Shown here: positions 685 to 15,794 of the stretch, piece after piece
Layout of the letters: every line of letters begins with the position of its first letter
How positions within the stretch are numbered: the stretch's first letter is position 1
NCBI GenBank assembly: GCA_017462505.1
Contig: JAFTQY010000056.1
Coordinates: 1 to 15,960, forward strand
Length of the DNA stretch: 15,960 nucleotides
DNA from: Clostridia bacterium
GTDB taxonomy: Bacteria > Bacillota_A > Clostridia > Christensenellales > Borkfalkiaceae
Direction of reading: 5' to 3'
Notes under the pieces: generated by a model
Seen by the model: the letters and a program-made list of their open reading frames with translations, nothing else
Told to the model about the DNA's origin: nothing
Databases searched by the model: none
Translations under genes and position numbers: made by a program

Positions 685-686
685 AA

Positions 687-2136: not shown

Positions 2137-2627
2137 TTTTTAACGGAAAATCGATCAAATACGGCGATAACGTGGACACGGACGTAATCATTCCCGCCCG
2201 TTATCTCAATACCATCGACAAAAAAGAACTCGCGTCCCATTGTATGGAAGATATCGACAAGGATTTCGTCAACAAAGTACAGGACGGCGATATCATGGTG
2301 GCGGGCTATAACTTTGGTTGCGGGTCTTCGCGTGAACACGCGCCCATCGCGATCAAGGCGAGCGGTATTTCGCTCGTTATCGCGCGTAGTTTTGCCCGTA
2401 TTTTCTATCGCAACTCTATCAATATCGGGCTTGCGATCGTGGAATGTCCCGAGGCGGTGGACGGCATTGCCGACGGGGATAAGGTAGAGGCGGATTTGGA
2501 TAACGGCGTTATCTACAACCGCACGACGGGCAAGAGCTTTAAAACCCAGCCCTTCCCCGCGTTTATTCAGGAAATTATTCAAAACGGCGGCTTGGTTTCG
2601 TCCATTCAAAAGGGCGTTATCCGTTAA
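2133..2627 (+). CDS. leuD: 3-isopropylmalate dehydratase small subunit
   Basis: Small subunit of isopropylmalate isomerase, supplying the aconitase swivel domain that completes the active site on LeuC. The 164-residue length fits the short LeuD type that pairs with a ~420-residue Leu[17 protein letters not shown] near the N-terminus and [11 protein letters not shown] around residues 63-73 are family hallmarks; the latter contributes substrate-binding residues. The start ATG overlaps the leuC stop by four bases and is preceded by GAGGAGG inside the end of leuC, so the two subunits are probably made in a coupled, equimolar way. A 34-bp gap follows before leuB. Confidence 0.96.
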
Positions 2628-2661
2628 GACAACGGCGCGAAAAAGCGCATAGGTGAGAAGT

Positions 2662-3732
2662 ATGAAAAATTATAAAATCGGCTTATTGAAAGGGGACGGT
2701 ATCGGCCCTGAGATCGTGGAAAGCGCGGTGCGCGTTTTAGAGGCGGTCGGCAAAAAACGTGATATTGCTTTTACGTTTACGCCCTACCTTATCGGCGGCG
2801 CGGCGATCGACGCTTGCGGCAAGCCTCTGCCCGAAGAAACGGTGGCGGGGTGTTTATCTTCCGACAGCGTGTTGCTCGGCGCGGTAGGCGGTCCGAAATG
2901 GGATACTCTCCCTGGAAACGTACGCCCCGAAAAGGCTCTGCTTGGTATTCGTGCGGCGATGGGGTTGTTTACCAACCTGCGCCCTGCAAAACTGTACCCT
3001 GCCTTGAAAGGCGAGTGCCCTTTGCGCGAGGATATCGTGGCAAACGGCTTTGATATTATGATCGTGCGCGAGCTTACGGGCGGTATCTATTTCGGCGAGC
3101 GCGGCTATCGCGAGGGCAAGTACGGCGAAGAGGCGTACGACACCGAGGCGTACAGCCGTATGGAGATCGAACGTATTGTGCGCGTAGCCTTTGAAACGGC
3201 AAGAAAACGCCGCAAAAAGCTGACGAGCATCGACAAGGCGAACGTGTTGGAAACGTCCAGACTTTGGCGCAAGATCGTGCACGAGATCGCGGCGGAATAT
3301 CCCGACGTAGAGGTCGCGGATATGCTGGTAGACAACGCGGCGATGCAGCTTGTGCGCAACCCGTCGCAATTCGACGTGATCGTCACGAGCAATATGTTCG
3401 GCGATATTTTGTCGGACGAGGCGTCGCAGATTACGGGCTCTATCGGTATGTTGCCGTCCGCGTCCTTGAACGAGGGCAAGCGCGGCTTGTATGAGCCGAT
3501 CCACGGTTCTGCCCCCGATATCGCAGGGCAAAACAAGGCGAACCCGATCGCAACCGTTTTGTCGGCGGCGATGATGCTCTTGTATGCGTTCGACGAAACG
3601 GCGGCAAGCGAGGATATCGTAGGCGCGGTGGATAAGGTGCTTGCGGCAGGTTTCCGTACGGCGGATTTGGCGCATGGCGCGCCTGCGCTTACGACCGAAG
3701 AAATGACGGATAAAATTATCGAAAATCTTTGA
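2662..3732 (+). CDS. leuB: 3-isopropylmalate dehydrogenase
   Basis: NAD-dependent oxidative decarboxylation of 3-isopropylmalate to 2-ketoisocaproate, the last dedicated leucine step before transamination. From the ATG at 2662 the product is 356 residues, normal for LeuB. A GTG at 2653 in the same frame is less likely because AGGTGAG at 2651-2657 would then overlap the start, whereas it is well placed for 2662. Visible motifs are [11 protein letters not shown] at the N-terminus, [14 protein letters not shown] (LeuB-type substrate loop), DNAAMQL and [17 protein letters not shown] (metal-binding aspartates and family signature), and [18 protein letters not shown] (NAD-binding). The TGGIYFG context supports isopropylmalate over isocitrate or tartrate dehydrogenase. 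It belongs to the leuCDB run. Confidence 0.96.
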
Positions 3733-3749
3733 TTTTCAAGGAAAAAGAT

Positions 3750-4934
3750 ATGGCAAACAAGGAACTGAATGCAATTTATGCAAAGCTTTGTCTTTGCACG
3801 GTGTTCCGCAAAGTGACCGAAAAGCCCTTGTTTAAGGCGTTTGAGCGGTATTGCTTGGCGGAGAGCCAAAACGAAAAACGCAAGGCATACGCGGCGTTTA
3901 CGGAGCTGGTTTACGAGGACGGCGGGTCGCTGACGGACAGCGTTGTGCGGCTCGTTTCCGAGGACGAAAACGTGTACGTAAAATGCGTGGCGGCGGACAA
4001 AACACCTGATAAAAACGTGGAAACGGCGGCAAGGAAAGAATTGTCGGCGTTTGCCCTTTTCGGCGCTCTTTCCCGCAAGGATTTCGCGGCAGACATGGGC
4101 GAAAACGAGGACGAATTGCCTAACTTTTTGTCCGTGAATGCGGACATGGGTGGGGTCTACGACGAAAGATTGCAAAATCTACACAAGTACGGCTACGGCA
4201 TTTTTTCGTCGCGGTGTATGTTCCGTCTTTCGGACGAAAAGGAGATCGAGCCGATCGTCAGCGCCGATAAGACGAGCATGGCGCAATTTATCGGGTACGA
4301 AAAGGAACGCGCCAAGGTCGTGGAAAATACCCGCGCGTTTATCGAGGGCAGACCTGCGGCAAACGTGCTCCTTTGCGGGGACGCGGGCACGGGCAAATCG
4401 TCCACGGTCAAGGCGGTGGCAAACGAGTTTTTCGGCGAGGGCGTTCGCTTGATCGAGCTGAGAAAAGATCAGCTTAGATACCTGCCCAACGTGATGGCAA
4501 AGGTCAGCGGCAACCCCTTAAAATTCATTATCTTTATCGACGATCTGTCCTTTAACAAGAACAACGACGATTTCAGTATGTTAAAGGCAGCGCTGGAAGG
4601 CTCGGCAAGCGCGACGGCGGACAACGCGGTGATCTATGCGACGAGCAACCGTCGGCATATCGTCAAGGAAAGCTTTGGCGATCGCGAGGGCGACGACGTG
4701 CACAGAAACGACACTCTACAAGAAACGCTGTCTTTATCCGAACGTTTCGGGCTTACGGTGCTCTTTTCCAAGCCCGACAAAAAGCTGTTTTTGTCTATCG
4801 TGCGGGAGCTTGCAAAACGCAACGGAATTGTTATGGACGAAAACGAATTGGACGTTCAAGCGGAAGCCTTTGCCATCCGCAAGGGTAGCAGATCTGCCCG
4901 TTGCGCAGAACAATTTATCAATAGCCTTTTATAA
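3750..4934 (+). CDS. DUF815-like AAA+ ATPase
   Basis: A 394-residue ATPase whose C-terminal half resembles the DUF815 family of AAA+ proteins, which have no well-defined role. Walker A is GDAGTGKS at residues 210-217; Walker B is IIFIDDLSF with Asp264 and Asp265; YATSNRRH follows as a sensor-1-like segment; and the GDREGDDVHRNDTLQE stretch before LSERFGL is typical of the family as I recall it. The N-terminal ~200 residues are helical, variable and not recognisable. The in-frame TTG at 3729 overlaps leuB, but the ATG at 3750 has AAGGA about seven bases upstream and is preferred. It lies 17 bp after leuB and 47 bp before ilvA, so it is probably cotranscribed with amino-acid genes although nothing in it suggests a metabolic role. 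No signal peptide or membrane segment; presumably cytosolic. Confidence 0.82.
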   Translation: MANKELNAIYAKLCLCTVFRKVTEKPLFKAFERYCLAESQNEKRKAYAAFTELVYEDGGSLTDSVVRLVSEDENVYVKCVAADKTPDKNVETAARKELSAFALFGALSRKDFAADMGENEDELPNFLSVNADMGGVYDERLQNLHKYGYGIFSSRCMFRLSDEKEIEPIVSADKTSMAQFIGYEKERAKVVENTRAFIEGRPAANVLLCGDAGTGKSSTVKAVANEFFGEGVRLIELRKDQLRYLPNVMAKVSGNPLKFIIFIDDLSFNKNNDDFSMLKAALEGSASATADNAVIYATSNRRHIVKESFGDREGDDVHRNDTLQETLSLSERFGLTVLFSKPDKKLFLSIVRELAKRNGIVMDENELDVQAEAFAIRKGSRSARCAEQFINSLL

Positions 4935-4981
4935 AGGGGGCTATACGTCCCGCAACGAAACCCACTACGAGGTGAAAAATT

Positions 4982-6175
4982 ATGCTTACGATCGACAACG
5001 TATACCGCGCGAGCAACGCGCTCAAAGGCGTAGCGAGAAAAACGGACGTGCTGTACGCGCCCAAGCTCTGCCCCGGCGTAGAGCTGTATTTAAAAACGGA
5101 AAATTTGCAAATTACCGGCTCGTTCAAGGTGCGCGGCGCTTATTATAAAATGACCAAGCTTTCCGCGGAAGAAAAACAGCGCGGCGTGATTGCCTGTTCG
5201 GCGGGCAACCATGCGCAGGGCGTGGCGCTTGCGGCGCAAAAAAACGGCATTAAGGCTGTGATTTGCCTGCCCGACGGCGCACCCATTTCCAAGGTCGAGG
5301 CGACGAAGAGCTACGGCGCGGAAGTTTGCCTTGTCGAAGGGGTGTACGACGACGCTTATCAAAAAGCGTTACAGCTCCGCGATGAAAAGGGGTACACTTT
5401 CTTGCATCCGTTCAACGATGAGGACGTGATCGCGGGACAGGGTACGATCGCACTTGAAATCGCCGAACAGCTCCCCGATTTGGACGCGGTGCTCGTGCCT
5501 ATCGGCGGAGGCGGGTTGATTTCGGGTATCGCCTATACCATTAAAACGCTCAACCCCAACGTCAAGGTGATCGGCGTGCAGGCAAAGGGTGCGCCGTCCA
5601 TGAAAAATGCGATCGAGCACGGCGAAGTGGAAGAGCTCCCGTCCGTATCGACGATCGCAGACGGTATCGCGGTGAAAAAACCGGGGGATCTCACGTACGA
5701 AATTTGCAGTAAATACGTGGACGAGATCGTGACGGTGACGGACGATGAGATCTCGGCGGCGATCTTGGCGCTGATGGAACAACATAAACTCGTTACCGAG
5801 GGCGCGGGCGCGGTCAGCGTTGCGGCTGCAATGTTTGGTAAAGTCGACCTCAAAGGCAAAAAAGCGGTGTGCTTGCTTTCGGGCGGCAATATCGACGTAA
5901 CCATTCTTTCGCGCGTGATCAAGCGCGGTTTGTTGATGTCGGGCAGGAGCTGCCAACTCATGATCGAGCTGATGGACAAGCCCGGTCAGCTTAAAAACGT
6001 GTCGCGTATCATTGCCGACCTTGGCGGCAACGTCACCAGCGTACACCACGAACGCGCCAACGAGGGTTCGGACGTCAACGGGTGTTACTTGCGTATCGTG
6101 CTGGAAACGAAAAATTACGAGCATATCGCGCAAATTCGTCAGGCGTTGAAGGATTTTGGGTTTAAGCTTTTATAA
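4982..6175 (+). CDS. ilvA: Threonine ammonia-lyase with one C-terminal ACT domain
   Basis: PLP enzyme that deaminates threonine to 2-ketobutyrate, the entry point of isoleucine synthesis. The PLP lysine is Lys49 in GSFKVRGAYYK; the glycine-rich phosphate loop is GGGG at 175-178; SAGNHAQGVA (about residues 74-83) is another fold-type II hallmark. The last ~80 residues (from about 320, ending GFKLL) form a single ACT domain, so this is the ~400-residue one-ACT type rather than the ~510-residue enterobacterial biosynthetic IlvA with two regulatory repeats. In this class the ACT domain is the likely site of feedback control. The start has GAGGTGA at 4969-4975 with ideal spacing. Placement between leuCDB and ridA argues for a biosynthetic job; a catabolic TdcB-like role is the alternative. 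Confidence 0.93.
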   Translation: MLTIDNVYRASNALKGVARKTDVLYAPKLCPGVELYLKTENLQITGSFKVRGAYYKMTKLSAEEKQRGVIACSAGNHAQGVALAAQKNGIKAVICLPDGAPISKVEATKSYGAEVCLVEGVYDDAYQKALQLRDEKGYTFLHPFNDEDVIAGQGTIALEIAEQLPDLDAVLVPIGGGGLISGIAYTIKTLNPNVKVIGVQAKGAPSMKNAIEHGEVEELPSVSTIADGIAVKKPGDLTYEICSKYVDEIVTVTDDEISAAILALMEQHKLVTEGAGAVSVAAAMFGKVDLKGKKAVCLLSGGNIDVTILSRVIKRGLLMSGRSCQLMIELMDKPGQLKNVSRIIADLGGNVTSVHHERANEGSDVNGCYLRIVLETKNYEHIAQIRQALKDFGFKLL

Positions 6176-6202
6176 AATTCGGCAAAAGTAAGGAGAAAAA
6201 TT

Positions 6203-6583
6203 ATGGCACAGCTTAAAAAAGTATCTACGGACAAAGCTCCCGCGGCAATCGGGCCTTATTCGCAGGCGATCGTGTGCGGGGACATGGTGTTTACCTCGGG
6301 GCAGATCCCCATCAATCCAGTTAGCGGCAACGTGAAGGCGACGACGATCGAGGGGCAGGCGGAACAGGTTATGCAAAACCTCGGCGAAGTGTTAAAGGCG
6401 GCGGGCAGCGGCTTTGAAAAAGCGGTAAAGACGACCTGTTTTTTGGCGGACATGGCGGATTTTGCGGCGTTTAACGGCGTGTATGCAAAATATTTCACGA
6501 CCAACCCCGCGCGTAGCTGCGTAGCGGTTAAAACCTTGCCGAAAAACGTGCTCGTTGAGGTGGAAGTTATCGCAACTTTGTAA
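6203..6583 (+). CDS. ridA: RidA family enamine/imine deaminase
   Basis: RidA hydrolyses reactive 2-aminoacrylate/2-aminocrotonate and their imine forms, released by PLP enzymes such as threonine ammonia-lyase, to keto acids and ammonia; this protects other PLP enzymes. The product is 126 residues, the standard length. Family residues visible are GPYSQA with Tyr19, PARSCVAV with Arg104, and the VEVEVIA terminus with Glu119. The start is fixed by AAGGAGAA about eight bases upstream. It follows ilvA by 27 bp and ends just before a strong terminator, so it is the last gene of the amino-acid unit, and the IlvA-RidA pairing makes direct biochemical sense. Confidence 0.95.
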   Translation: MAQLKKVSTDKAPAAIGPYSQAIVCGDMVFTSGQIPINPVSGNVKATTIEGQAEQVMQNLGEVLKAAGSGFEKAVKTTCFLADMADFAAFNGVYAKYFTTNPARSCVAVKTLPKNVLVEVEVIATL

Positions 6584-6608
6584 TATAATCAAAACGTAAA
6601 AATAGGCG

Positions 6609-6645
6609 AACTCGCCGTGAGTGATACAGCTCACGGCGAGTTTTT
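6609..6645 (+). terminator. Rho-independent terminator after ridA
   Basis: A perfect 13-bp stem, AACTCGCCGTGAG (6609-6621) with CTCACGGCGAGTT (6630-6642), has an 8-base loop and is followed by a run of T at 6641-6645. It lies 25 bases past the ridA stop and closes the amino-acid unit. Confidence 0.93.
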
Positions 6646-6721
6646 CAATATGCGGTCGATAGTTTTCCCAAACGAAAGCGGTTTTTTTAAACACACGGAA
6701 GGCAAGGTTGTAAGTCTGGCT

Positions 6722-6736
6722 GCAAGATCATCTTGC
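6722..6736. promoter_or_regulatory. 15-bp palindrome upstream of ABC cassette
   Basis: GCAAGAT-C-ATCTTGC is a perfect inverted repeat around one base, directly next to the 11-bp hexamer ladder that begins at 6738. It could be a protein-binding operator. As RNA it would give only a 6-bp stem with a TCA loop before four T, a weak terminator. Function not demonstrated. Confidence 0.35.
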
Positions 6737-6737
6737 T

Positions 6738-6824
6738 TTTACATTTCTTTTACAAAATCTTAATAAAACCTTTGCCGAAAAAGAACATTTTTTTGATAGG
6801 ATACTTTTACAATATATGTAAAAT
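6738..6824 (+). promoter_or_regulatory. Candidate response-regulator box and promoter of the ABC cassette
   Basis: TTTACA (6738), TTTACA (6749), TTAATA (6760) and TTTGCC (6771) lie exactly 11 bp apart; the 6782 position is degenerate, and TTGATA (6793) is again on the 11-bp grid. TTGATA could act as the -35 box, with TAAAAT at 6819-6824 as -10 after a long 20-bp spacer. PhoB/PhoP/VanR-type regulators of the OmpR family bind direct hexamers at 11-bp period next to weak -35 regions, so I infer an activator-dependent promoter. The same arrangement precedes the gene at 10432. Confidence 0.55.
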
Positions 6825-6843
6825 AACGAAAACGGAGAAAATT

Positions 6844-7743
6844 ATGAACGCGATCGAAATCAGAAATCTATCCAAAAGCTTTCGCGGCATGTACGCGGTA
6901 AACGGTTTAAACATGACCGTACCCGTGGGCGCGATCTACGGCTTTATCGGCGAAAACGGGAGCGGGAAATCCACGACGGAAAAATTGCTGTGCGGACACC
7001 TCGTGCCCGACGGCGGCGAAATTCGCCTGTTCGGCAAGCCGTATACGGACGCAGGGGTGCGCGCACGGGTGGGCGCGCTCATTGAAAACGCGGGCTGTTT
7101 CCCCTCGTCCAGCGTGTATGCAAATCTTAAAATGCAGGCGCTGAATTTAGGACTGGAAAATGCCGACGAGGAAATTGCGCGCGTCTTGAAGATCGTCCGC
7201 ATGGAAAATTCCGCGAAGATCAAATTTAAAAGCTGTTCGCTGGGTATGAAACAGCGTATCGGTATCGCGATGGCGCTCCTTGGCGACCCCGCTTTGCTCA
7301 TCTTGGACGAGCCGATCAACGGTTTGGACACGGACGGTATGCGGATCATGCGCGAAATTCTCGTCGATATCACCAAGACGTACGGGTGCACGGTGTTGAT
7401 CTCGTCCCATATCTTGGGCGAGCTGGAAAAGATCGCCACGCACTATGGCATTATCCGCCAAGGGCGCATGGTACAGGAGCTTACCGCCAAGGAAATGGAA
7501 AGCCGCGCGCGGGTGTTCGTGTCCTTGAAAACGGCGGACATGCAGGGCGCAAGGGCGATTTTGTCGGCGAAATTTACTTCCGTCCGCGAAGAGGACGGGT
7601 ATCTGCGCGTGTACGACGTGGACGATACGGAAAGCATCGTAACCGCTTTGCTTGAAAGCGGGCACGCGGTACGGGAAATCAAGAAAAACAAGATCGGCTT
7701 GGAAGAATACTACGTCGAACTCATGAGCCGAAAGGGGGTGTGA
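6844..7743 (+). CDS. ABC transporter ATP-binding protein, BcrA-like (module 1)
   Basis: Nucleotide-binding subunit of an ABC transporter, 299 residues from the ATG at 6844, which has CGGAGAA just upstream; the frame is open further upstream but without support. Walker A is GENGSGKST at 36-44, the signature is degenerate SLGMKQR at 132-138 (instead of LSGGQ), Walker B is LLILDEP with Asp155 and Glu156, and SSHILGELE supplies the switch histidine. SLGMKQR with DEPINGLD is characteristic of the BcrA/LanF-like subfamily tied to bacitracin or lantibiotic resistance and to many uncharacterised exporters; the substrate cannot be told from sequence. The C-terminal ~80 residues match the typical extension of this group. 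Its partner permease starts one base after its stop codon. A close paralogue lies at 8583. Confidence 0.9.
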   Translation: MNAIEIRNLSKSFRGMYAVNGLNMTVPVGAIYGFIGENGSGKSTTEKLLCGHLVPDGGEIRLFGKPYTDAGVRARVGALIENAGCFPSSSVYANLKMQALNLGLENADEEIARVLKIVRMENSAKIKFKSCSLGMKQRIGIAMALLGDPALLILDEPINGLDTDGMRIMREILVDITKTYGCTVLISSHILGELEKIATHYGIIRQGRMVQELTAKEMESRARVFVSLKTADMQGARAILSAKFTSVREEDGYLRVYDVDDTESIVTALLESGHAVREIKKNKIGLEEYYVELMSRKGV

Positions 7744-7744
7744 T

Positions 7745-8572
7745 ATGGAAAAGGTACGAGAATTAAAATTTGAAAATCCTAGCTTTGCCAAGCGCATTAA
7801 GGGCATGCTCGGCGTAGATTTTTACCGACTGTTCCACACGCCGCTTTTTTACATTTTCTTGGCGATCGCGGCGATCATTCCCGCAATGATACTCGGCATG
7901 ACGAGCATGGAAAACGCGGAAGGGGTGGTCGAGCCGCTGTATACCAACACGTGGCAAGTGATCGCGGCAAAAGAACCGCTGTATGCCATTAAAAATATCG
8001 CCGATTACGCGAATATGAACATGGTGTTTATCTTCGGCGGTATCATGGTGTCGATCTTTATCGGGCACGATTATAAGAGCGGATACGTCAAACAGCTCTT
8101 TACCACGCACGCAAAAAAGGAAGATTATATGATCTCCAAAACGGCGATCGGGGCGTTTTCGATGGCGTGCATGTGCATAACGTATTTGTTGGGTACGGTG
8201 CTTGCGGGCGCGCTGGTACAGGCGTCCTTTAAGGTGAGTTTCGTCGGCATTGTCAGCGCGTTGCTCGGCAAAATCCTGATGAGCCTCGGCTGGGCGAGCC
8301 TGTACGTTTTCCTGAACGTGATTTTCAGAAGATACTTCGGCGTATCGATCGCGTCGTCCTTCTTTTTCGGGACGGGGATCTTGATCGTCGGGGTTGCGGC
8401 GGCGGCAGGCAATACGCCCATGCTCAACGTGTTCTTGTACGGGGCGTCGGTGTACGCTTGTCTGAGCGCAAATTTCCTGTCCGTTTTGGTATGTCTTGGG
8501 GTGTCCGTGGCTTGGGCGGCGATCTATAACGTGCTGGGCTCGGTGGTTTTGTCCAAGTGCGACGTGTATTGA
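7745..8572 (+). CDS. ABC-2 type transporter permease (module 1)
   Basis: Integral membrane subunit, 275 residues, with about six predicted membrane segments near residues 33-52, 92-107, 131-157, 166-192, 198-221 and 243-268, as usual for ABC-2 permeases of BcrB/LanE type. A cytosolic amphipathic N-terminus precedes the first segment, and a ~40-residue loop lies between the first two. GHDYKSGYVKQLFTTHAKK after segment 2 is a conserved-looking cytoplasmic loop, paralleled in the second permease by AEDFRSGYAKNLFTVRAKK. It presumably pairs with the ATPase directly upstream; AAGGGGGTG at the end of that gene serves as ribosome binding site. The exported substrate is unknown. Confidence 0.87.
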   Translation: MEKVRELKFENPSFAKRIKGMLGVDFYRLFHTPLFYIFLAIAAIIPAMILGMTSMENAEGVVEPLYTNTWQVIAAKEPLYAIKNIADYANMNMVFIFGGIMVSIFIGHDYKSGYVKQLFTTHAKKEDYMISKTAIGAFSMACMCITYLLGTVLAGALVQASFKVSFVGIVSALLGKILMSLGWASLYVFLNVIFRRYFGVSIASSFFFGTGILIVGVAAAAGNTPMLNVFLYGASVYACLSANFLSVLVCLGVSVAWAAIYNVLGSVVLSKCDVY

Positions 8573-8582
8573 GGGTGTAAAT

Positions 8583-9509
8583 ATGAACGCAGTAATAAAC
8601 GCAGTTGAAATTAGAAACTTAACGAAAAACTTTGGCGCAAAACAGGCGGTGAACGGGTTGAATATGACCGTACCCGTGGGCGCGATCTACGGCTTTATCG
8701 GCGAAAACGGGAGCGGGAAATCGACGACGGAAAAGATCATTTGCGGGCTTATCCACGCAAGCGGCGGGGAGGTCAAGCTGTTCGGCAGAGATTTAACGGA
8801 CGAGGACGTGCGCGCAAAGATCGGCGTTTTGATCGAAAGCCCCGGCTGTTTTAAAAATTGCACGGTATGGAATAATTTGATGATACAGGCGGAAAACCTG
8901 TCCTTAAAAAACGCAAAAGAAAAGGTGCGGGACGTATTGAAACTGGTGCGCATGGAAGGCGCGGCGGGCAATAAATACAAAAACTGTTCGCTGGGCATGA
9001 AACAGCGTATCGGTATTGCGATGGCTCTGCTTGGCGAGCCCGAGCTGCTTGTTTTGGACGAGCCGATCAACGGTTTGGACGCAGACGGTATGCGTATCAT
9101 GCGCGAAGTGTTGACGGACGTGGCGAAACGGGGTTGCACGGTCATCGTTTCGTCCCATATCTTAGGGGAGCTTGAAAAGGTGGCTACCCATTACGGGATC
9201 GTGCGCGGCGGCAAGATGATCAGAGAGATGACGGCGGCGGAGCTGGAAAAAAGCTGTCGTACGTTTGTGGCTTTGCAGGCGAAGGATATGATGAAAGCCA
9301 AAGCGCTCTTGACAGCGAAATACGCTCGCGTCGAAGAGGACGAAAAGGGATATTTGCGGGTGTACGATGACGTGCGCGCCGAAGAGGTGGTCGAATATCT
9401 CTACCGCTACGGCGTGGTGGTCAACGAGATCGGCACAGATAAGATCGGGTTGGAAGAATACTATATCGACTTGATGCAGGGGGCAAATAATCATGGAAAA
9501 ACAGTTTGA
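8583..9509 (+). CDS. ABC transporter ATP-binding protein, BcrA-like (module 2)
   Basis: Second ATPase, 308 residues from the ATG at 8583; GAGGG at 8571-8575 gives a proper spacing, so the open frame extending back into the permease is not used. Walker A GENGSGKST is at 40-48; CSLGMKQRIGIAMALLG, LLVLDEPINGLD and SSHILGELE match module 1 almost word for word. The whole length aligns with the first ATPase, including the C-terminal GLEEYY-(I/V)-(D/E)-LM motif. The two genes share a 59-base perfectly identical stretch around Walker A (8664-8722 and 6913-6971), while other parts have diverged clearly. Its 3' end overlaps the next permease by 17 bases, indicating coupling. The two ATPases may form a heterodimer or serve separate permeases. 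Confidence 0.9.
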   Translation: MNAVINAVEIRNLTKNFGAKQAVNGLNMTVPVGAIYGFIGENGSGKSTTEKIICGLIHASGGEVKLFGRDLTDEDVRAKIGVLIESPGCFKNCTVWNNLMIQAENLSLKNAKEKVRDVLKLVRMEGAAGNKYKNCSLGMKQRIGIAMALLGEPELLVLDEPINGLDADGMRIMREVLTDVAKRGCTVIVSSHILGELEKVATHYGIVRGGKMIREMTAAELEKSCRTFVALQAKDMMKAKALLTAKYARVEEDEKGYLRVYDDVRAEEVVEYLYRYGVVVNEIGTDKIGLEEYYIDLMQGANNHGKTV

Positions 9510-10326
9510 AAAGAATACCTTTGCAAAGCGGTTAAAGAGCATGCTGCGGGTGGATACGAGGCGTATGTTTACCTCGCCGCTCGTCTATATTATGGCGGGG
9601 ATATCGCTCGTCGTGCCCGTTTTGATCTTGGTGATGACGACGATGATGGACGGAAAGGTGTCCGTCGATCCGCAGACGGGCGCAGAAACGGTGATGGAAG
9701 GCTTTAAAAACGTCTGGCAGATATTCGGGGCGGTCAGCTCCGCGGGTACGGGCGCAGACGCTGGCGCAGGCGCAGGTATGGGTATGGGCATGAGCATTAC
9801 GTCCATGTGCAATATCAATATGATGTATTTTGCGATCGCGGTGCTCGTTTGTCTGTTCGTCGCGGAGGATTTCCGCAGCGGGTACGCAAAGAACCTGTTC
9901 ACCGTCCGTGCGAAAAAGACGGATTACGTGATATCCAAAACGGCGGTTTGCTTTATCGGCGGCGCGATCATGATTTTGTGCTTTACGGTAGGCGCGCTGA
10001 TCGGCGGCAAGGTAGCGGGCTTGCCCTATACCATGGACGGATTTAACGTATATAATATTGTTTGCTGTATCGTGAGCAAGACGTTGCTGGTGTCTATTTT
10101 CGTCGCAATTTTCTTGGTAATGAGCGTCGTAGGAAAGCACAGATCGTGGCTGTCTTTGCTGCTTTCGTTCGGGTTGGGAATGTTCCTGTTTATGATGGTA
10201 TCGATCGCAAGCCCCTTGGACGCGGGCGTGTTGCATATCGTCCTGTGCTTGGCGGGCGGCGGTATGTTTGCCGTGGGTTTGGGCGCGATCAGCAATATCG
10301 TGCTCAAAAAGACGAGCTTGGTTTAA
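9493..10326 (+). CDS. ABC-2 type transporter permease (module 2)
   Basis: A 277-residue membrane protein homologous to the permease of module 1: the N-termini align (FAKRLKSMLRVDTRRMF against FAKRIKGMLGVDFYRLF) and so does the cytoplasmic loop after segment 2. About six membrane segments are expected, the first near residues 30-50. Unlike its paralogue, the extracytoplasmic loop between segments 1 and 2 carries a low-complexity Gly/Ala/Met stretch, roughly residues 85-100 (GTGADAGAGAGMGMGM), which looks like repeat expansion at DNA level. The ATG at 9493 lies inside the ATPase gene, with AGGGGG upstream. The stop codon overlaps the first hexamer of the regulatory ladder for the next gene. Confidence 0.87.
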   Translation: MEKQFEKNTFAKRLKSMLRVDTRRMFTSPLVYIMAGISLVVPVLILVMTTMMDGKVSVDPQTGAETVMEGFKNVWQIFGAVSSAGTGADAGAGAGMGMGMSITSMCNINMMYFAIAVLVCLFVAEDFRSGYAKNLFTVRAKKTDYVISKTAVCFIGGAIMILCFTVGALIGGKVAGLPYTMDGFNVYNIVCCIVSKTLLVSIFVAIFLVMSVVGKHRSWLSLLLSFGLGMFLFMMVSIASPLDAGVLHIVLCLAGGGMFAVGLGAISNIVLKKTSLV

Positions 10327-10398
10327 CAAAAGCTTAACAAAACCTTTGCAAACGGTTTACGGATTTTTGATAAAAGAGCAATATCCCCTCCGTATAAT
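10323..10398 (+). promoter_or_regulatory. Candidate response-regulator box and promoter for the small membrane protein gene
   Basis: TTAACA (10323), TTAACA (10334), TTTGCA (10345), TTTACG (10356) and TTGATA (10367) all lie on an exact 11-bp period. TATAAT at 10393-10398 is a perfect -10 box, 20 bp after TTGATA. Order, spacing and the 20-bp spacer match the element ahead of the ABC cassette, aligning 6749 with 10323 and 6793 with 10367. The first hexamer overlaps the permease stop codon. I infer control by the same OmpR/PhoB-type regulator; readthrough from the cassette may also transcribe the gene. Confidence 0.6.
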
Positions 10399-10431
10399 AA
10401 GGGTGTAAGCTGAAAGGAAAGGAGAAACATT

Positions 10432-10788
10432 ATGGACGAAAGCAAAAAAAGATTGATAGAGGATATCCGCGGCGATTACGAGGAAAAACCGCAAACGATC
10501 TTTGACGAGCTGATCGCTTTGGATAAAAAAGCAAAACGTCCCGCGCTGATTTTTGCGCTCGCATTTGGGATTTTTGCGGCGCTGATCATGGGGACGGGTA
10601 TGTGCCTTGCGATGAAAGTGGTTTTCGCAAGCTACGTTTGGACGATGCCCGTAGGGGTCGCGGTCGGAATTGTCGGGCTTGGCTTATCGGCACTCAATTA
10701 CTACCTGTATCGGGTGTTGCAGCAAAAAGGCAAGGATAAATACGGCGAAACGATTCTTTCTCTTACGAACGAATTGCTCGGCGAATAA
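10432..10788 (+). CDS. Small two-helix membrane protein, function unknown
   Basis: A 118-residue protein with a charged helical N-terminus (about 1-38), two membrane segments (about 40-62 and 68-92) and a charged C-terminal tail ending in ELLGE. The double AAGGAAAGGAG ahead of the ATG is a strong ribosome binding site. It resembles small Firmicutes membrane proteins that I recall being labelled dihydropteridine reductase in automatic annotations; I see no reductase motif or nucleotide-binding fold, so that name should not be transferred. It follows the ABC cassette and shares its regulatory element, which suggests a role in the same envelope or antimicrobial-peptide response. No terminator is visible directly after it; an intergenic repeat follows. 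Confidence 0.75.
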   Translation: MDESKKRLIEDIRGDYEEKPQTIFDELIALDKKAKRPALIFALAFGIFAALIMGTGMCLAMKVVFASYVWTMPVGVAVGIVGLGLSALNYYLYRVLQQKGKDKYGETILSLTNELLGE

Positions 10789-10789
10789 A

Positions 10790-10797
10790 AGGAGGTT
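10790..10797 (+). promoter_or_regulatory. Orphan Shine-Dalgarno-like sequence
   Basis: AAGGAGGT follows the stop of the small membrane protein gene by only a base or two, but no start codon with a worthwhile ORF follows at ribosome-binding distance. Repeat copy B begins 14 bases later, so the site may once have served a downstream gene now displaced. Confidence 0.4.
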
Positions 10798-10810
10798 CTG
10801 TTCCAACACT

Positions 10811-10930
10811 CGGTAGATTTCTACCTACAAAACGCTACGCAATACTTCGCATAACGCGCGGTTTCGTACCACAGCGGGTACGCGCCCTTGCATTCTGCTT
10901 GTCTTGCTTGCGTTTTCCTACGGTAGATTG
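10811..10930. repeat. Intergenic repeat element, copy B
   Basis: CGGTAGATT occurs at both ends (10811-10819 and 10921-10929). Inside, in the same order as copy A near 687-819, are CGCAATACTTCG (10838-10849), a hairpin CGTACC/GGTACG (10865-10882), GTCTTGCTTGCG (10901-10912) and a T run. A further small hairpin GGTAG/CTACC lies at 10812-10825. No ORF of note. The flanking direct repeat could be either an element end or a target duplication. The rest of the gap, 10931-10986, is A/T-rich and holds no clear promoter. Confidence 0.55.
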
Positions 10931-11003
10931 CTAAGGCTAATCAACCGCTTGTTGTGACATCACCATAAAAAATAAAAAATTAAAATAAAAGGAGAAAACA
11001 AAA

Positions 11004-11279
11004 ATGGGTTTTTTCAAAAAGGCATTCAAGGACATGAAGGAAAACGCAAAGGCGCAGCACGAAGTAGACAAGGCGAACTTTAACGCGGTAAAAGCGGAAT
11101 CGAAAGCGACGTGGGAAGAGGCGAAACAATCCCCTGCGGCTCGCCAAGCGATGATGCAGGAAGAACGCGAAAAGCAGATCGCGGAGGCGAACGCGCGCAC
11201 GGCGGCGGCGCAGGCGCGTATTGACGCGGCAAAAAACCGCAACACCGTAGCGAAAGCGAACCGCGAAGAAAAAAACTAA
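11004..11279 (+). CDS. Small charged helical protein, function unknown
   Basis: A 91-residue protein rich in Lys, Glu, Ala and Gln with no Cys and almost no hydrophobic runs apart from the MGFFKKAF start. It should be one or two long helices, possibly a coiled coil: the segment from about residue 47 to 85 has repeated REK/AEANAR/AAAQARIDAAK character. AAAGGAG ahead of the ATG at 11004 and the terminator right after the stop make it a convincing single gene. I recognise no family. The amphipathic N-terminus might touch the membrane, but there is no signal peptide. It lies between the small membrane protein and cls; no functional link can be shown. Confidence 0.72.
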   Translation: MGFFKKAFKDMKENAKAQHEVDKANFNAVKAESKATWEEAKQSPAARQAMMQEEREKQIAEANARTAAAQARIDAAKNRNTVAKANREEKN

Positions 11280-11285
11280 AAGAGT

Positions 11286-11310
11286 AAGGGCAGATACGTC
11301 TGCCCTTTTT
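11286..11310 (+). terminator. Rho-independent terminator after the small helical protein
   Basis: A 9-bp stem AAGGGCAGA (11286-11294) with TCTGCCCTT (11299-11307) around a TACG tetraloop, followed by T to 11310. It starts seven bases after the stop codon and lies 24 bp before cls, so cls needs readthrough or its own promoter; I see no clear promoter between them. Confidence 0.88.
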
Positions 11311-11333
11311 CCCTTTTTGGTTAGGAGCGTATT

Positions 11334-12902
11334 ATGAAGAAAAAAACCGTTTATAACGTCGGGCGTAAAAAGATCGAACGGGAGATCAATTATATTCCCG
11401 TCCGCTATATTATTGCCATGATGATCACGGTGCTGGAAATTTTGGCGATCATCGGTACGGTGGTGGCGCTTTGTTATTTTGTGCCCTATTTTTATTTGGC
11501 GGTGCTGGTAACGCAGGTCTGTTGCGTGGTGGGGATCATTGCCACCGACGACAACCCCGATTATAAGATACCGTGGCTGCTGTTCGTTATGATCCTGCCG
11601 ATCGCGGGCTTTATGCTGTATTTTCTCTTTTACAAGCGGAATTTGAATAAAAAATTCCGTCGGCGTTTGGAACGGCTGTTTGCGCGCCGTTATCAAAAAG
11701 AGGACGAGGGAACCTTTGCGCGGCTTAGGGAAGAGAACGCCGTGGCGGCTACGCAGGCAAAAATGCTGTGCAATATTGCGGACGCGCGCCTTTTTTCAAA
11801 TACCAAGCAGGAATATTTCCCCGTCGGGGAAGAAATGTGGGTGCGGTTGCTTGCCGATCTGCGTAGCGCGCAAAAATTTATATTTATGGAATATTTTATC
11901 GTCGAAGAGGGGAAATTTTGGAACTCGATTTTGGCGATTTTAAAGCAAAAGGCGGCAGACGGGTTGGAAGTAAAGGTCGTATACGACGATATCGGCTGTA
12001 TGTCCACGCTCCCCGGAAATTACGCAAAGCGGCTGAAAAAATTCGGTATTGAGGCGACCCCCTTTTCTCGCCTGCGCGGTAGCGCGGACGGGGAATTTAA
12101 CAACCGCAGTCACAGAAAAATTACGGTGATCGACGGCGTGATCGCGTACACGGGTGGGGTGAATATCGCCGACGAGTATATCAACGAGGTCAAACGGTTT
12201 GGGCACTGGAAGGACGTTGGGTTGCGCTTGGAAGGGGAGGGCGTTTTGGAAATGACGCGGCTCTTCCTTGTCGATTACGGCATGAACGTCAAAAGAAACG
12301 GCGAATGGAAGGATAGCTATTTTCCCGCCTTTGAAAACGGGGGACAAGCGCACGGGTACGTCGTGCCCTTTGGCGACGGACCCCGTCCCGTGTACAAGCG
12401 TAACGTGGGCAAAAGCGTAATTTTAAATTTGCTTGCTTGCGCGACCGAATACGTCGATATTACGACCCCTTATTTGATTTTGGATAACGAGCTTTGCAGC
12501 GCGATAGAAAACACGGCGTTGCGCGGGGTACGGGTACGGATCGTCGTGCCGCATATCCCCGATAAAAAACTCGTTTTTGAGGCGACGCGTAGCTTTTACA
12601 AACGGTTTTTGGACGCGGGCGTAGAGATTTACGAATACACGCCCGGGTTTATCCACGCAAAGACGTACGTAGTGGACGGAAAATATGCGATGATCGGCAC
12701 GATCAATCTCGATTACCGCTCTCTTGTGCACCATTTTGAAAACGGCGTGTGGATGTACGGTTGCGAATGTATCAAGGACGTGGAAAAGGACGTAGAAGAA
12801 ACGGTGCAAAAAAGCCAAAAAATCGAAAAGGAAACGTGGAAAGTCAGCGTGTCCAAACGCATGCTCCGTTCCCTTGTGCGGATCTTTGCGCCGCTGTTAT
12901 AA
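11334..12902 (+). CDS. cls: Cardiolipin synthase, phospholipase D superfamily
   Basis: Membrane enzyme joining two phosphatidylglycerol molecules into cardiolipin and glycerol. The 522-residue product has the standard layout: hydrophobic segments at roughly 25-48, 53-70 and 80-100, then two phospholipase D domains. Both HKD motifs are intact: HRKITVID (His260, Lys262, Asp267) followed by GGVNIADEY, and HAKTYVVD (His441, Lys443, Asp448) followed by GTINLDYRS. The strongly basic patch after the membrane segments (KKFRRRLERLFARRYQK) suits a lipid-facing surface. AGGAG lies ahead of the ATG at 11334. It ends at a palindromic terminator shared with the convergent transporter gene. Another PLD-type phosphatidyltransferase is possible, but the length and N-terminal membrane region favour Cls. 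Confidence 0.93.
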   Translation: MKKKTVYNVGRKKIEREINYIPVRYIIAMMITVLEILAIIGTVVALCYFVPYFYLAVLVTQVCCVVGIIATDDNPDYKIPWLLFVMILPIAGFMLYFLFYKRNLNKKFRRRLERLFARRYQKEDEGTFARLREENAVAATQAKMLCNIADARLFSNTKQEYFPVGEEMWVRLLADLRSAQKFIFMEYFIVEEGKFWNSILAILKQKAADGLEVKVVYDDIGCMSTLPGNYAKRLKKFGIEATPFSRLRGSADGEFNNRSHRKITVIDGVIAYTGGVNIADEYINEVKRFGHWKDVGLRLEGEGVLEMTRLFLVDYGMNVKRNGEWKDSYFPAFENGGQAHGYVVPFGDGPRPVYKRNVGKSVILNLLACATEYVDITTPYLILDNELCSAIENTALRGVRVRIVVPHIPDKKLVFEATRSFYKRFLDAGVEIYEYTPGFIHAKTYVVDGKYAMIGTINLDYRSLVHHFENGVWMYGCECIKDVEKDVEETVQKSQKIEKETWKVSVSKRMLRSLVRIFAPLL

Positions 12903-12920
12903 AACGGACGAAAAAAACAA

Positions 12921-12952
12921 AAAGCCCCCGACACGTGTCGGGGGCTTTGCTC
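12921..12952. terminator. Bidirectional terminator between cls and the convergent transporter
   Basis: Positions 12921-12948 are a perfect 28-bp palindrome, arms AAAGCCCCCGACAC and GTGTCGGGGGCTTT. A residues precede it and T/C residues follow, so a GC-rich hairpin with a short U tract can form from either strand. It lies 18 bp past the cls stop and 15 bp past the end of the minus-strand gene. Confidence 0.9.
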
Positions 12953-12962
12953 TTTTTAAAGG

Positions 12963-14129
12963 TTAAACAAACGGTCTTTCTACGCGGATTACGCAAAAGC
13001 AATTCGGCTTTTGCCTGCGGATATTTTCGCTGACGAGATTTTCCGCCTCTTCCGTTTCCATCTTGCAATCTGCGGGAAGTAATAAATCGAAGATAAGGTT
13101 GACGTTCGTTTCGCCCATGGTCATACGGAAATCGTGAATGGAAAACGCGGGGTCAACTTCCTTAGCGGCGGCAACCGCTACCGCGTGCATTTCGTTTACG
13201 AGCGGGTCGTTCATCACGAGGGGGTCTAAATGAATGGTCACGATACACCCGAACGTTTCGTGCATGTCCCGTTCCATTCTGTCCACTTCCTCGTGCGCAT
13301 TGTTGATATTTTCCTCGGAATCGACCTCGGCATGGAAAGAAACGATCTGTCTGCCGGGGCCGTAGTCGTGCACCATAACGTCGTGGATACCGATGACCAA
13401 AGGATACCCCTTGGCAAAGTCGTAAATTTGTTTAATAAATTCGGGGTCGGGGGTAGAGCCAAGCAACAAATCGATGGTTTCTTTCGCCGCCTTAAAGCCC
13501 GTGAACATGATAAACACGGCGACGAGGATACCCGCATACCCGTCGATACGCCAGCCCCAAATTTTCGCTACAACGGACGAAACGAGCACGAGCGTGGTCG
13601 CGATACAGTCGCTCAGGCTGTCGAAAGCGGCGGCTTTGAGGGGGGCGGAATTGATTGTGTTTGCAATTTTGCGATAGAAGAAAAAGAGCCAGACCTTGAC
13701 TAAGATCGCTACGCCGAGAATGACGAGTGTGACCGTGCCGACGGTGGGGAGCTGCGGATGCATGATTTTATCTACGGACGAGGTCAAAAGCTCAAACCCG
13801 ACCAAGATGATGAGCATATCGACGATAAAGCCCGTGACGTATTCCAGCCGCCCGTGCCCCAAGGGGTGTTCCTTATCGACGGGCTTATTCGCAAGGCGAA
13901 AGCCGATGAGGGCGACGACGGACGAGCCCGCGTCCGAGATGTTGTTAAACGCGTCCGCAATAATGGCGACGGAGCGCGCAATCAAGCCCATAACCAGCTT
14001 GCCCGCAAAGAGCAAAACGTTTAAAAGAATGCCCGTAAAACCGCCGAGAGCGGCGTATTTGCCCCGCACCTTAGGATCGCGCGGGTCTTTGTCTTTGCCG
14101 ATAAAAATTCGGGTAAGTAAGTTCGTCAT
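12963..14129 (-). CDS. Cation diffusion facilitator family transporter, probable Mn2+ exporter
   Basis: Divalent-metal/proton antiporter of the CDF family, 388 residues: six membrane segments in the first ~210 residues and a cytosolic C-terminal domain. The transport-site residues are Asn62 and Asp66 (NxxxD in segment 2, within DAFNNISD) and Asp170 and Asp174 (DxxxD in segment 5). Zinc-type members usually have His in these positions (HxxxD); NxxxD with DxxxD is the pattern of bacterial manganese exporters such as MntE, so I infer manganese. HPLGHGRLEY follows segment 2 as in many family members. The tail beyond ~300 is longer than the shortest CDFs and includes a second ferredoxin-like-looking stretch. 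The start codon is preceded by GGACGGAAAA, a modest ribosome binding site. Confidence 0.92.
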   Translation of the reverse strand: MTNLLTRIFIGKDKDPRDPKVRGKYAALGGFTGILLNVLLFAGKLVMGLIARSVAIIADAFNNISDAGSSVVALIGFRLANKPVDKEHPLGHGRLEYVTGFIVDMLIILVGFELLTSSVDKIMHPQLPTVGTVTLVILGVAILVKVWLFFFYRKIANTINSAPLKAAAFDSLSDCIATTLVLVSSVVAKIWGWRIDGYAGILVAVFIMFTGFKAAKETIDLLLGSTPDPEFIKQIYDFAKGYPLVIGIHDVMVHDYGPGRQIVSFHAEVDSEENINNAHEEVDRMERDMHETFGCIVTIHLDPLVMNDPLVNEMHAVAVAAAKEVDPAFSIHDFRMTMGETNVNLIFDLLLPADCKMETEEAENLVSENIRRQKPNCFCVIRVERPFV

Positions 14130-14182
14130 AATTTTCCGTCCGTAGAAATAAATAGCGTGCGTATAGGCGCGCCTGTATTTGT

Positions 14183-14211
14183 ATTATATGCAAAACGGGG
14201 GGATTTGTCAA
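14183..14211 (-). promoter_or_regulatory. Consensus sigma-A promoter of the CDF transporter
   Basis: On the minus strand, TTGACA (14206-14211) and TATAAT (14183-14188) are separated by exactly 17 bp, both perfect consensus. A 10-bp palindrome AGGCGCGCCT at 14165-14174 sits at about the predicted transcript start and could be an operator. The leader to the start codon is only ~45 nt, too short for a full yybP-ykoY manganese riboswitch. Confidence 0.85.
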
Positions 14212-14212
14212 T

Positions 14213-14242
14213 AAAAAAGCCGACCTTTTCGGGTCGGCTTTT
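14213..14242 (-). terminator. Rho-independent terminator after the oadB-oadG operon
   Basis: An 11-bp stem, AAAAGCCGACC (14215-14225) with GGTCGGCTTTT (14232-14242), gives a U tract on the minus-strand transcript from the A run at 14213-14218. It lies 16 bases past the end of the gamma-subunit gene and abuts the -35 box of the next gene. Confidence 0.88.
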
Positions 14243-14258
14243 CCGTCTTTGTTAATTT

Positions 14259-14483
14259 TTAATTTGAATTTTCGTCGTTGGATTTTTGTTCTTCCGCTTT
14301 CTTTTTCTTTGCCTCTTCGCATTTTGCGATGGTGAGCGCGGTCAATTTTACGACGATGATGATTGCAAAAATTACAATAAAAATCGCAAGGAGACCTTTC
14401 CATAAAATTTCAAGAGAGGCGGTCATATTTTTGCCGTTCATAGGGGTAAGTCCTTCAAAAAGTGCAAGCATTGTATTCAACAT
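14259..14483 (-). CDS. oadG: OadG-like gamma subunit of a sodium-pumping decarboxylase
   Basis: A 74-residue protein with a short N-terminal stretch, one membrane helix (about residues 28-50, ILWKGLLAIFIVIFAIIIVV) and a highly charged, Lys/Glu-rich C-terminal tail ending in SNDENSN. This is the layout of OadG/MmdD gamma or delta subunits, which hold the cytosolic carboxyltransferase to the membrane beta subunit. The sequence is short and low in complexity, so the call rests largely on the 13-bp distance to oadB and on topology. Its TAAGGAGAG ribosome binding site includes the oadB stop codon, indicating coupling. It is the last gene before a terminator. Confidence 0.7.
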   Translation of the reverse strand: MLNTMLALFEGLTPMNGKNMTASLEILWKGLLAIFIVIFAIIIVVKLTALTIAKCEEAKKKKAEEQKSNDENSN

Positions 14484-14496
14484 AGTCTTTCTCTCC

Positions 14497-15624
14497 TTAT
14501 AATACCAAACCGATGATCAGACCGCCGACGATAGCCGAGGCGATTTGTCCCGAAACGTTTGCGCCGACTGCGTGCATCAAAAGGTGGTTAGACGTGTCCT
14601 CTTTAACGCCCACTTTTTCCACGACGCGCGCCGCCATAGGGAATGCGGAAATACCTGCCGCGCCGATGAGCGGATTGATTTTTTCTTTCGAGAACAGGTT
14701 CATGAGCTTTGCGCACATAACGCCGCCTACCGTGTCGAATACAAACGCAAACAAACCGAGCGCCATAATGATAAGCGTGTTAATGGAGATAAACGCGCTT
14801 GCTTGCATTTGGAATGCGATCGTGATACCAAGGAGCAACGTGATGATATTCGAAAAAGTCGACTGCGCCGTTTCCGAAAGCGAGCCGAGTACACCGCATT
14901 CTCTAAGTAAGTTACCGAACATCAGCATACCGACGAGGGAGAGCGATTCGGGGGCGATCAAGCCCGAAATGACCGTTACGATGATCGGGAAGAGGATTCG
15001 CATCAAACGGGAAACCTGTTTTGCGCTGTATTTCATTTTAATACGGCGTTCTTTTTTGGTCGTGCAAACTTTCATAACAGCGGGCTGTACAATAGGAACA
15101 AGCGCCATATAGGAATACGCGACTACGGTGATAGGTCCTACGAGGGAATTAAACAGATTGCCGATGGGGAGCAGGGTGTTTGCTACGTGGATCGCGGTAG
15201 GGCCGTCCGCCGCGCCGATAATACCGATCGAGGACGCCGCGTCGAGAGGGAAACCGATCATAACCGCTAAAATAATAGTAATAAAGATACCAAGCTGCGC
15301 CGCGCCGCCCAAAATAAAGAGTTTCGGGTTGGAAAGTAAAGGACCGAAGTCGATCATACAACCGATACCGATAAACAGGAGCAAGGGCATTGCCTCGCTT
15401 GCCGCGATACCGACTTTGAACAGCGAAGTGATGATGCCGTTGTCCTTGATCACGGGGGATAAGGGCAGGTTGACCAAGATCGCGCCAAAGCCCATGGGCA
15501 GAAGAAGAGCGGGTTCCATATCCTTTTTAATGGCAAGGAAAATGAGCAACGCGCCGATGAACCACATCGCGATCATTTTGGGGTTATCGCCGATGGCGTA
15601 AAAACCCTCTAAAAGGTATTTCAT
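14497..15624 (-). CDS. oadB: Sodium ion-translocating decarboxylase beta subunit
   Basis: Membrane subunit that couples decarboxylation of carboxybiotin to Na+ export, as in oxaloacetate, methylmalonyl-CoA or glutaconyl-CoA decarboxylases. From the ATG at 15624 it is 375 residues, normal for the shorter family members; this start has GGAGG six to seven bases upstream, whereas the longer frame to 15681 would begin upstream of the predicted transcript start. Strongly hydrophobic with about nine segments. SIGIIGAADGPTAIHVA carries Asp140, corresponding to the Asp implicated in Na+ binding in characterised OadB; SAFPMAARVV and the terminal GANVSGQIASAIVGG are further family motifs. No alpha or biotin-carrier subunit is near, so the substrate is undetermined. 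Confidence 0.93.
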   Translation of the reverse strand: MKYLLEGFYAIGDNPKMIAMWFIGALLIFLAIKKDMEPALLLPMGFGAILVNLPLSPVIKDNGIITSLFKVGIAASEAMPLLLFIGIGCMIDFGPLLSNPKLFILGGAAQLGIFITIILAVMIGFPLDAASSIGIIGAADGPTAIHVANTLLPIGNLFNSLVGPITVVAYSYMALVPIVQPAVMKVCTTKKERRIKMKYSAKQVSRLMRILFPIIVTVISGLIAPESLSLVGMLMFGNLLRECGVLGSLSETAQSTFSNIITLLLGITIAFQMQASAFISINTLIIMALGLFAFVFDTVGGVMCAKLMNLFSKEKINPLIGAAGISAFPMAARVVEKVGVKEDTSNHLLMHAVGANVSGQIASAIVGGLIIGLVL

Positions 15625-15652
15625 AAAAGCCTCCAAAATATATTTCGTATTT

Positions 15653-15781: not shown

Positions 15782-15794
15782 AATTGCTGACTTC

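Follow-up and report, generated by a model that had tools for sequence, protein, structure and literature searches.

Two 11-bp hexamer ladders at a duplicated ABC-2 transporter and a small membrane protein gene suggest a two-component membrane regulon in Clostridia

Gene content of the locus and the two ladders

The stretch of DNA analysed here, 15,960 nucleotides of a Clostridia bacterium of the Borkfalkiaceae (GenBank assembly GCA_017462505.1, contig JAFTQY010000056.1, positions 1 to 15,960 of the forward strand; the whole stretch is called the window below), carries two ladders of TTWACA-like hexamers repeated at an exact 11-bp step, one upstream of a duplicated ATP-binding cassette (ABC) transporter and the other upstream of a gene for a small membrane protein. 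The genes, ladders and -10 boxes described in this section lie on the + strand. The first gene behind ladder 1 encodes ABC ATPase 1 (A1, 6844..7743, PF00005), and it is followed by ABC-2 type permease 1 (P1, 7745..8572), ABC ATPase 2 (A2, 8577..9509, PF00005) and ABC-2 type permease 2 (P2, 9493..10326). The order A1-P1-A2-P2 is found in the window and in most of 80 related loci, which are the best 80 of 396 loci related to A1, are 80-91% identical and come each from a separate genome (L numbers denote loci and G numbers genomes of these relatives). P2 scored above the cut-off of 27 bits for PF12730 (28 bits) and P1 under it (21.8 bits). The best NCBIfam model for A1 was TIGR03740, the lantibiotic-protection ATPase, with 199.7 bits, and A2 reached 212.6 bits, both under the cut-off of 309.75. 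The stop codon of P2 overlaps the first hexamer of ladder 2, behind which lies the gene for the small membrane protein MP (118 aa, 10432..10788), whose homologues in relatives have a ladder of their own and which matched nothing in Pfam (E 0.001) or NCBIfam (E 0.01). MP is followed by Q91 (91 aa, 11004..11279), a member of the AQHEVDKAN family that often neighbours MP and cardiolipin synthase genes and for which no family was found in the Pfam or NCBIfam searches, and by a cardiolipin synthase (PLD, 11334..12902; TIGR04265, 321 bits, above the cut-off of 290).

Ladder 1 (6738..6798) has six positions, TTTACA at 6738, TTTACA at 6749, TTAATA at 6760, TTTGCC at 6771, the degenerate AGAACA at 6782 and TTGATA at 6793. 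Ladder 2 (10323..10372) has five hexamers, TTAACA at 10323, TTAACA at 10334, TTTGCA at 10345, TTTACG at 10356 and TTGATA at 10367. The initial annotation had described these hexamers, their exact periodicity and the closing TTGATA of both ladders, and every unit was read again at its position. The ladder score was the sum over four TTWACA-like hexamers at an 11-bp step, or over three where stated. The two ladders were the top 11-bp TTWACA ladders of the window, with 25.0 at 10323 and 23.2 at 6738; the remaining high scores of the + strand were registers of these two, and the top score of the - strand was 13.5. Whole-window dinucleotide shuffles (n=500) gave a maximum score of 13.3 +/- 1.6 with a largest value of 23.5, so that 25.0 was reached in none and 23.2 in one of the 500. 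The observed score was reached in 0/5000 local shuffles of the 160-bp upstream region at each site, and the best scores for steps 8-10 and 12-15 within the window were 11.2-13.8; shuffles and other steps alike speak against chance. A short palindrome, GCAAGATCATCTTGC, was also seen at 6722-6736, with a single base between it and the start of ladder 1. L015 carries an imperfect palindrome resembling it, GCAAAATTATCTTGC, and L001 has none.

Promoter 2 has a TATAAT -10 box at 10393..10398. The -10 box proposed earlier for promoter 1, TAAAAT at 6819..6824, is in 11-bp phase and is not preserved in the two relatives closest by A1 (L001 of G001, 91% identical, and L015 of G002, 89%). In the alignment of the ladder 1 region, TACAAT at 6808..6813 corresponds to TACAAT in L001 and TATAAT in L015, and because of this conservation it is more likely to be the -10 box of promoter 1, judged by sequence, despite a simple -10 matrix that ranks 6819 above 6808 (6.2 vs 4.9). 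With 6808 as the -10 box, the strong TTWACA-N5-TTWACA pair begins 70 bp upstream in both promoters (6738 to 6808 and 10323 to 10393). The earlier proposal of -10 boxes at 6819 and 10393, each 20 bp after TTGATA, therefore stands for promoter 2 only; both sequences exist, but 6819 is probably misplaced, and 6808 puts TTGATA 9 bp before the -10 box of promoter 1. No sigma-70-type promoter with a 16-18 bp spacer, that is with a normal -35, was found at either site in the scan, and an ordinary sigma-70 promoter was rejected on this result.

Recurrence of the ladder in related loci

The 80 related loci are titled Clostridia or related groups, and many are from deer, goat or sheep gut. In the window and these loci, 52 positions scored at least 20 at step 11 (neighbouring registers of one ladder being counted separately), compared with 0-4 at each of steps 8-10 and 12-15. 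The 160 bp before each gene were scored with a threshold of at least 17.5, where one locus may supply several regions per class, and where matches below 35% identity (for A1, A2, PLD, the regulator RR-X and the histidine kinase described below), matches starting after residue 40 and pieces shorter than 100 bp were dropped. The threshold was reached upstream of A1 in 26/81 regions, MP in 10/26 and RR-X in 10/26, and further in 2/32 for Q91, 1/23 for PLD, 0/1 for a diacylglycerol kinase and 0/42 for Y125, a small membrane protein described below. Before internal genes it was reached in 0/276 (kinase 0/21, the membrane protein M308 0/25, P1 0/80, A2 0/77 and P2 0/73), in random 160-bp windows in 0.37% of 6000, and at steps 9, 10, 12 and 13 in the same A1, MP and RR-X regions in at most 3.8%. 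Some low-scoring A1 regions sit behind other module genes with a ladder farther upstream, such as L073, and others are simply without a ladder.

Eight hand-picked promoters of the second type, of which the L015 member precedes Q91, could be aligned without gaps from the ladder to the -10 box. The invariant columns include the T, A and C positions of the hexamers, and the repeat unit approximates TTWACA-WWW-C-T. Conservation of the hexamers in orthologous promoters had been set as a test beforehand, and it was found, with a fixed phase to the -10 box; the proposal that ties MP to the transporter as one response is likewise supported by the same ladder before A1 and MP in relatives. At L015:13476-13587 no MP gene was found, and the ladder promoter there stands directly before Q91 and cardiolipin synthase.

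Phase between the ladder and the -10 box

The phase was measured with -10 boxes picked by a TATAAT matrix that was blind to the ladder. The best five hexamer offsets to the -10 box were 48, 37, 26, 15 and 59 bp for A1 (57/81 regions with a -10 box) and 48, 37, 59, 15 and 26 bp for MP (22/26 regions). The distance from the strong adjacent pair to the best -10 box was 48 bp in 12 and 70 bp in 7 of 24 A1 regions, 70 bp in 8 of 11 MP regions, and 48 bp in 4 and 26 bp in another 4 of 14 RR-X regions. Altogether, 39 of these 49 distances equal 4 modulo 11.

The ladder regions are AT-rich (0.64-0.67) and hold A/T tracts, and chance AT-rich DNA or a bending tract without any regulator could be thought of on that account. 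This explanation is opposed by the shuffles, the other steps in the same regions, the background windows and the phase to the -10 box, and we regard it as very improbable.

The regulator RR-X and its kinase

RR-X is a 223-aa protein composed of a receiver and a Trans_reg_C domain (PF00072 and PF00486, both above cut-off in the L003 copy and in L095, the copy of G001). In gene order it is followed by a histidine kinase (PF00512 and PF02518), a membrane protein of about 308 aa (M308) and Y125 of about 125 aa. A regulator match was found in 26 of the 81 loci read, often beside the ABC cassette and the MP-Q91-cardiolipin synthase genes, and one of these matches (L049) was only 36% identical. No regulator match was found in the window itself. 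In both closest relatives RR-X lies on a separate contig with its own ladder (G001:C50 and G002:C12), which reads TTAACA-N5-TTAACA-N5-TTGATA in G001 and TTTACA-N5-TTAACA-N5-TTAACG in G002. An unlinked kinase and regulator pair with its own copy of the box had been expected, and a regulator that fits was found in these two genomes. The expectation that the regulator is encoded elsewhere holds for the window and its two nearest kin, but not for the 26 loci in which a regulator match lies nearby. The domains of RR-X and the ladder on its gene in relatives also support, at the level of sequence, the reading of the ladder as an OmpR/PhoB-family site that the initial annotation had offered.

RR-X was searched in the 80 genomes, in 30 at E <= 1e-50 (27 with a match) and in 50 at E <= 1e-60 (36 with a match), which gave 74 match rows, 60 of them with the locus read. 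Among RR-X genes of at least 65% identity, 14/21 reached a ladder of at least 17.5, with 48 and 37 as the top offsets, and below 55% identity the threshold was reached by 1/6.

Two N-terminal membrane helices and an outer loop of less than 25 aa characterise intramembrane-sensing kinases. A simple hydropathy script gave two N-terminal membrane helices and an outer loop of 9-21 residues, within that length, for 16 of 24 full-length copies of the kinase; the other 8 were over-split by the script, 1 further copy was truncated, and the kinases of G001 and G002 lie outside this sample. Y125 (L003:9460-9834 and homologues) forms a second small membrane protein family with a layout like that of MP, and 21 of the 26 loci that hold a regulator match have it behind the kinase and M308. 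The Y125 and MP proteins of L003 had no Pfam match, and one of 12 MP homologues carried a precomputed PF20990.

Ladder targets across genomes and lipid genes

The three-hexamer pattern, with at most one mismatch, was scanned through 37 of the 80 genomes, hand-picked mostly for an RR-X match or a ladder. It gave 40 matches, in 24 of the 37 genomes, compared with 12 for the reversed pattern. The locus was annotated for 30 of the 40, and 22 of these precede module genes: 7 stand before RR-X, 3 before A1, 11 before MP or Q91 (with or without cardiolipin synthase) and 1 before a weak MP-like gene of 28% identity. Five of the 30 precede nothing that belongs to the module. Such a scan had been proposed as a check on the regulon, and run in relatives it leads mainly back to the module. 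A scan with two mismatches was discarded as too loose, since 12 genomes gave 50 matches and the reversed pattern gave 31 in the same set.

Lipid genes recur among the ladder targets. The cardiolipin synthase homologue of L054 has its own ladder. A ladder at L036:3761 was seen before a PlsY-type acyltransferase gene (PF02660), and one at L010:2165 precedes a gene that we take, from its sequence, to be FabF-like. A diacylglycerol-kinase-like gene in G001 (L212) was considered as a regulon member and rejected, the ladder being out of phase with -10-like sequences in a count by eye.

Proposed mechanism of the regulon

Our reading, to which we give a probability of about 0.78, is that an autoregulated OmpR/PhoB-type two-component system, RR-X and its kinase, controls the duplicated ABC-2 transporter, the small membrane proteins and cardiolipin synthase through the ladders. 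It builds on the ladder, its phase and conservation, the target set, the linkage to RR-X and the ladder on the RR-X gene in relatives, all of which were obtained by computation. Binding of RR-X to the ladders is predicted by analogy with the OmpR family, for whose regulators 11-bp direct repeats are standard according to excerpts of PMC6222199 and PMC4415409. The ladders would be the operators of RR-X, which would be partnered by a histidine kinase whose two membrane helices are joined by a very short outer loop. Phosphorylated RR-X dimers would load head to tail on the strong TTWACA-N5-TTWACA pair, would then occupy the weaker units that follow in phase in the direction of the -35 region, and would bring in RNA polymerase at promoters with a -10 box and no normally spaced -35. 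Both window promoters would thereby be switched on together, yielding the duplicated transporter and MP, while read-through would yield Q91 and cardiolipin synthase, and RR-X would activate its own gene. We infer that RR-X acts as an activator rather than a repressor, that read-through occurs and that RR-X is present in the window's own genome. The signal is probably membrane or envelope stress such as antimicrobial peptides, because the kinase has a short loop, the ABC-2 transporter is nearest to the lantibiotic-protection ATPases (under the cut-off) and cardiolipin synthase is among the targets, and this is the least certain step.

A wider proposal is put forward tentatively and with less than even confidence. 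The regulon may be tuned at each promoter by whole helical turns between the pair and the -10 box (26, 48 or 70 bp) with weak in-phase sites between them, and it may couple a doubled ABC-2 transporter, small two-helix membrane proteins and cardiolipin synthesis as membrane repair, with MP and Y125 perhaps being accessory sensors of the short-loop kinase, as a so far undescribed system of uncultured Clostridia.

Several results weigh against the control of these genes by RR-X through the ladders. The ladder is far from universal at A1, where 48 of the 81 regions score below 15, and the regions before internal genes, which served as the control, are less AT-rich (0.50-0.57) than those before A1, MP and RR-X (0.64-0.67). 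The presence of RR-X is weakly associated with an A1 ladder of at least 15 (28/60 vs 4/20, Fisher p 0.039 with kinship ignored), L025 and L051 have a ladder and no RR-X match at the cut-offs used, and the ladder threshold is reached by only 3/33 RR-X genes of 55-65% identity, a set whose top offsets are 15 and 26. As to the phase, the offset list of RR-X is led by 15 and 26 only and continues with out-of-phase offsets (23/26 regions), and 59 comes first for the control genes too, with a far lower score of -0.55 and with out-of-phase offsets next (107/276). The window's own A1 was scored with 6819 in the offset and pair counts, so its pair distance counts there as 81 bp. When the anchor was jittered by up to 5 bp, 0/1000 runs reached the observed phase value, by margins of 1.0 units for A1, 1.7 for MP and 0.2 for RR-X; the control set likewise passes all 1000 runs, by 0.05 units and in another phase, and because of this the jitter test by itself is no proof of phase.

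Further points of this kind come from phosphate genes. The hexamer and its 11-bp spacing resemble Pho boxes, and the ladders might be Pho boxes through which a PhoB/PhoP-type regulator controls these genes within the phosphate-starvation response. The best NCBIfam model for RR-X is a PhoB model, although the L003 copy stays under the cut-offs (TIGR02154 163.6 bits, cut-off 296.2; NF053854 187.5 bits, cut-off 270). In G050 and G034, TTTACA stands 9 bp ahead of the -10 box of the pstS promoter, the same geometry as here. The three-hexamer scores upstream of PstS matches were 13.3 in G050, 13.3 in G034, 11.2 in G029, 8.7 in G004 and 17.6 in G057, the last before a weak, partial match (L207, G057:C20). 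A Na/phosphate-transporter-like gene in the pst cluster of G034 has a three-hexamer ladder of 15.8, and three of the 30 annotated genome-wide matches (L181, G004:C4:68189; L253, G054:C21:2367; L258, G031:C7:77925) precede phosphate-transporter-like genes, which were named from sequence and not by search. A PhoB-like regulator may thus read such ladder sites. Yet it is RR-X, not the pst-linked regulator, that adjoins the module, and 22 of the 30 annotated matches are module genes. In G050, G034 and G004 a different OmpR-type regulator is found no farther than about 6 kb from pst, followed by a kinase in G050 and G034, and RR-X and the PstS match are on different contigs in G003, G004, G029, G034, G050 and G057. 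Because a different regulator adjoins pst and RR-X is on another contig, RR-X is, as far as gene positions tell, not the pst-linked regulator. No match to PstS (PF12849) was obtained in G001 and G002, which are possibly incomplete metagenome-assembled genomes. Each of these two shows two OmpR-type regulators, RR-X and one other, and no three-hexamer ladder of at least 13 stands before the second OmpR-type regulator gene of G001, G002 or G003 (L238-L240) in the regions read. RR-X and the pst-linked regulator may read similar DNA, and the ladders at phosphate-transporter-like genes are possibly PhoB sites that overlap the code of RR-X. Control of the ladder genes by a phosphate-starvation regulator is in our view unlikely.

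RR-X could also read the ladders as a repressor that is released on stress. The weaker ladder units extend over the -35 region, and an excerpt of PMC6222199 reports that RR_1586 of C. difficile, an OmpR-family regulator of 11-bp direct repeats, repressed E. coli reporters and that its phosphorylation in vitro led to release from most tested sites. RR_1586 as the same system was rejected, its consensus in that excerpt being repeated DRTTAAGNWWW, a different operator. Repression is opposed by the lack of a sigma-70-type -35 at 16-18 bp at either site and by the position of the strong pair, which is far upstream by a whole number of helical turns (48 or 70 bp in most regions) and fits activation, and we give this alternative little credence.

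Comparison with known systems

The module resembles CprRK-CprABC and Bce-type modules, yet it departs from each in defining features. Like CprABC of Clostridioides difficile, as described in excerpts of PMC5786555 and PMC10601699, it has an ABC-2 type transporter that would be controlled by a two-component system with the regulator encoded elsewhere on the chromosome, and its ATPases are nearest to TIGR03740, though under that model's cut-off. Unlike Cpr, which by the excerpt of PMC5786555 comprises one ATPase and two permeases and has a kinase loop of 113 aa in CprK, it has two ATPase-permease pairs and a kinase with a short loop; in relatives the regulator and kinase also adjoin each other, unlike in CprRK. 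Shared with BceRS-BceAB is a transporter whose neighbouring kinase has two membrane helices and only a very short loop, but the permeases here are of the ABC-2 type with about 275 aa, and those of BceB type have 626-651 aa (PMC5786555, in excerpt). According to an excerpt of PMC10601699, DraRS of C. difficile, which responds to lipid II antibiotics and also activates hexRK and hexSDF, has a regulon that joins an ABC transporter operon with the membrane-lipid genes hexSDF. The target genes differ, and the likeness is one of regulon content, without a sequence comparison of RR-X with DraR or HexR or of the operators. The ladders share with the Pho boxes of PhoB/PhoP direct repeat units of 11 nt that an OmpR-family regulator reads head to tail (PMC4415409, in excerpt), or is predicted to read in the case of the ladders, and the placing of units in phase upstream of the -10 box. 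They are unlike Pho boxes in their targets, a transporter and membrane-lipid module, in a regulator that is not the pst-linked one, and in their build, with a strong pair that is in most cases 48 or 70 bp away from the -10 box, weaker units between, and a unit of about TTWACA-WWW-C-T. No published description of this module was found among the papers listed in a search of titles and abstract openings (direct-repeat operators, lantibiotic modules, CprRK and cardiolipin-synthase regulons), with most subscription journals and preprints outside its scope.

Regulatory switches of this kind are little known in these bacteria. A readable operator code for a regulator of bacteria known mainly from metagenomes would allow its targets to be listed from sequence alone. 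The joining of the transporter, the unnamed small membrane proteins and cardiolipin synthesis in one predicted stress response gives the unnamed families a testable role, and the whole-turn positions of the pair make it testable how OmpR-family operators tolerate a varied distance to RNA polymerase.

Other features of the window

No RNA element or tRNA was found in the window by Rfam (gathering score) or ARAGORN. A strong hairpin at 6609-6642 lies between a RidA-family gene and ladder 1 and may be a terminator marking the ABC operon off from the genes before it.

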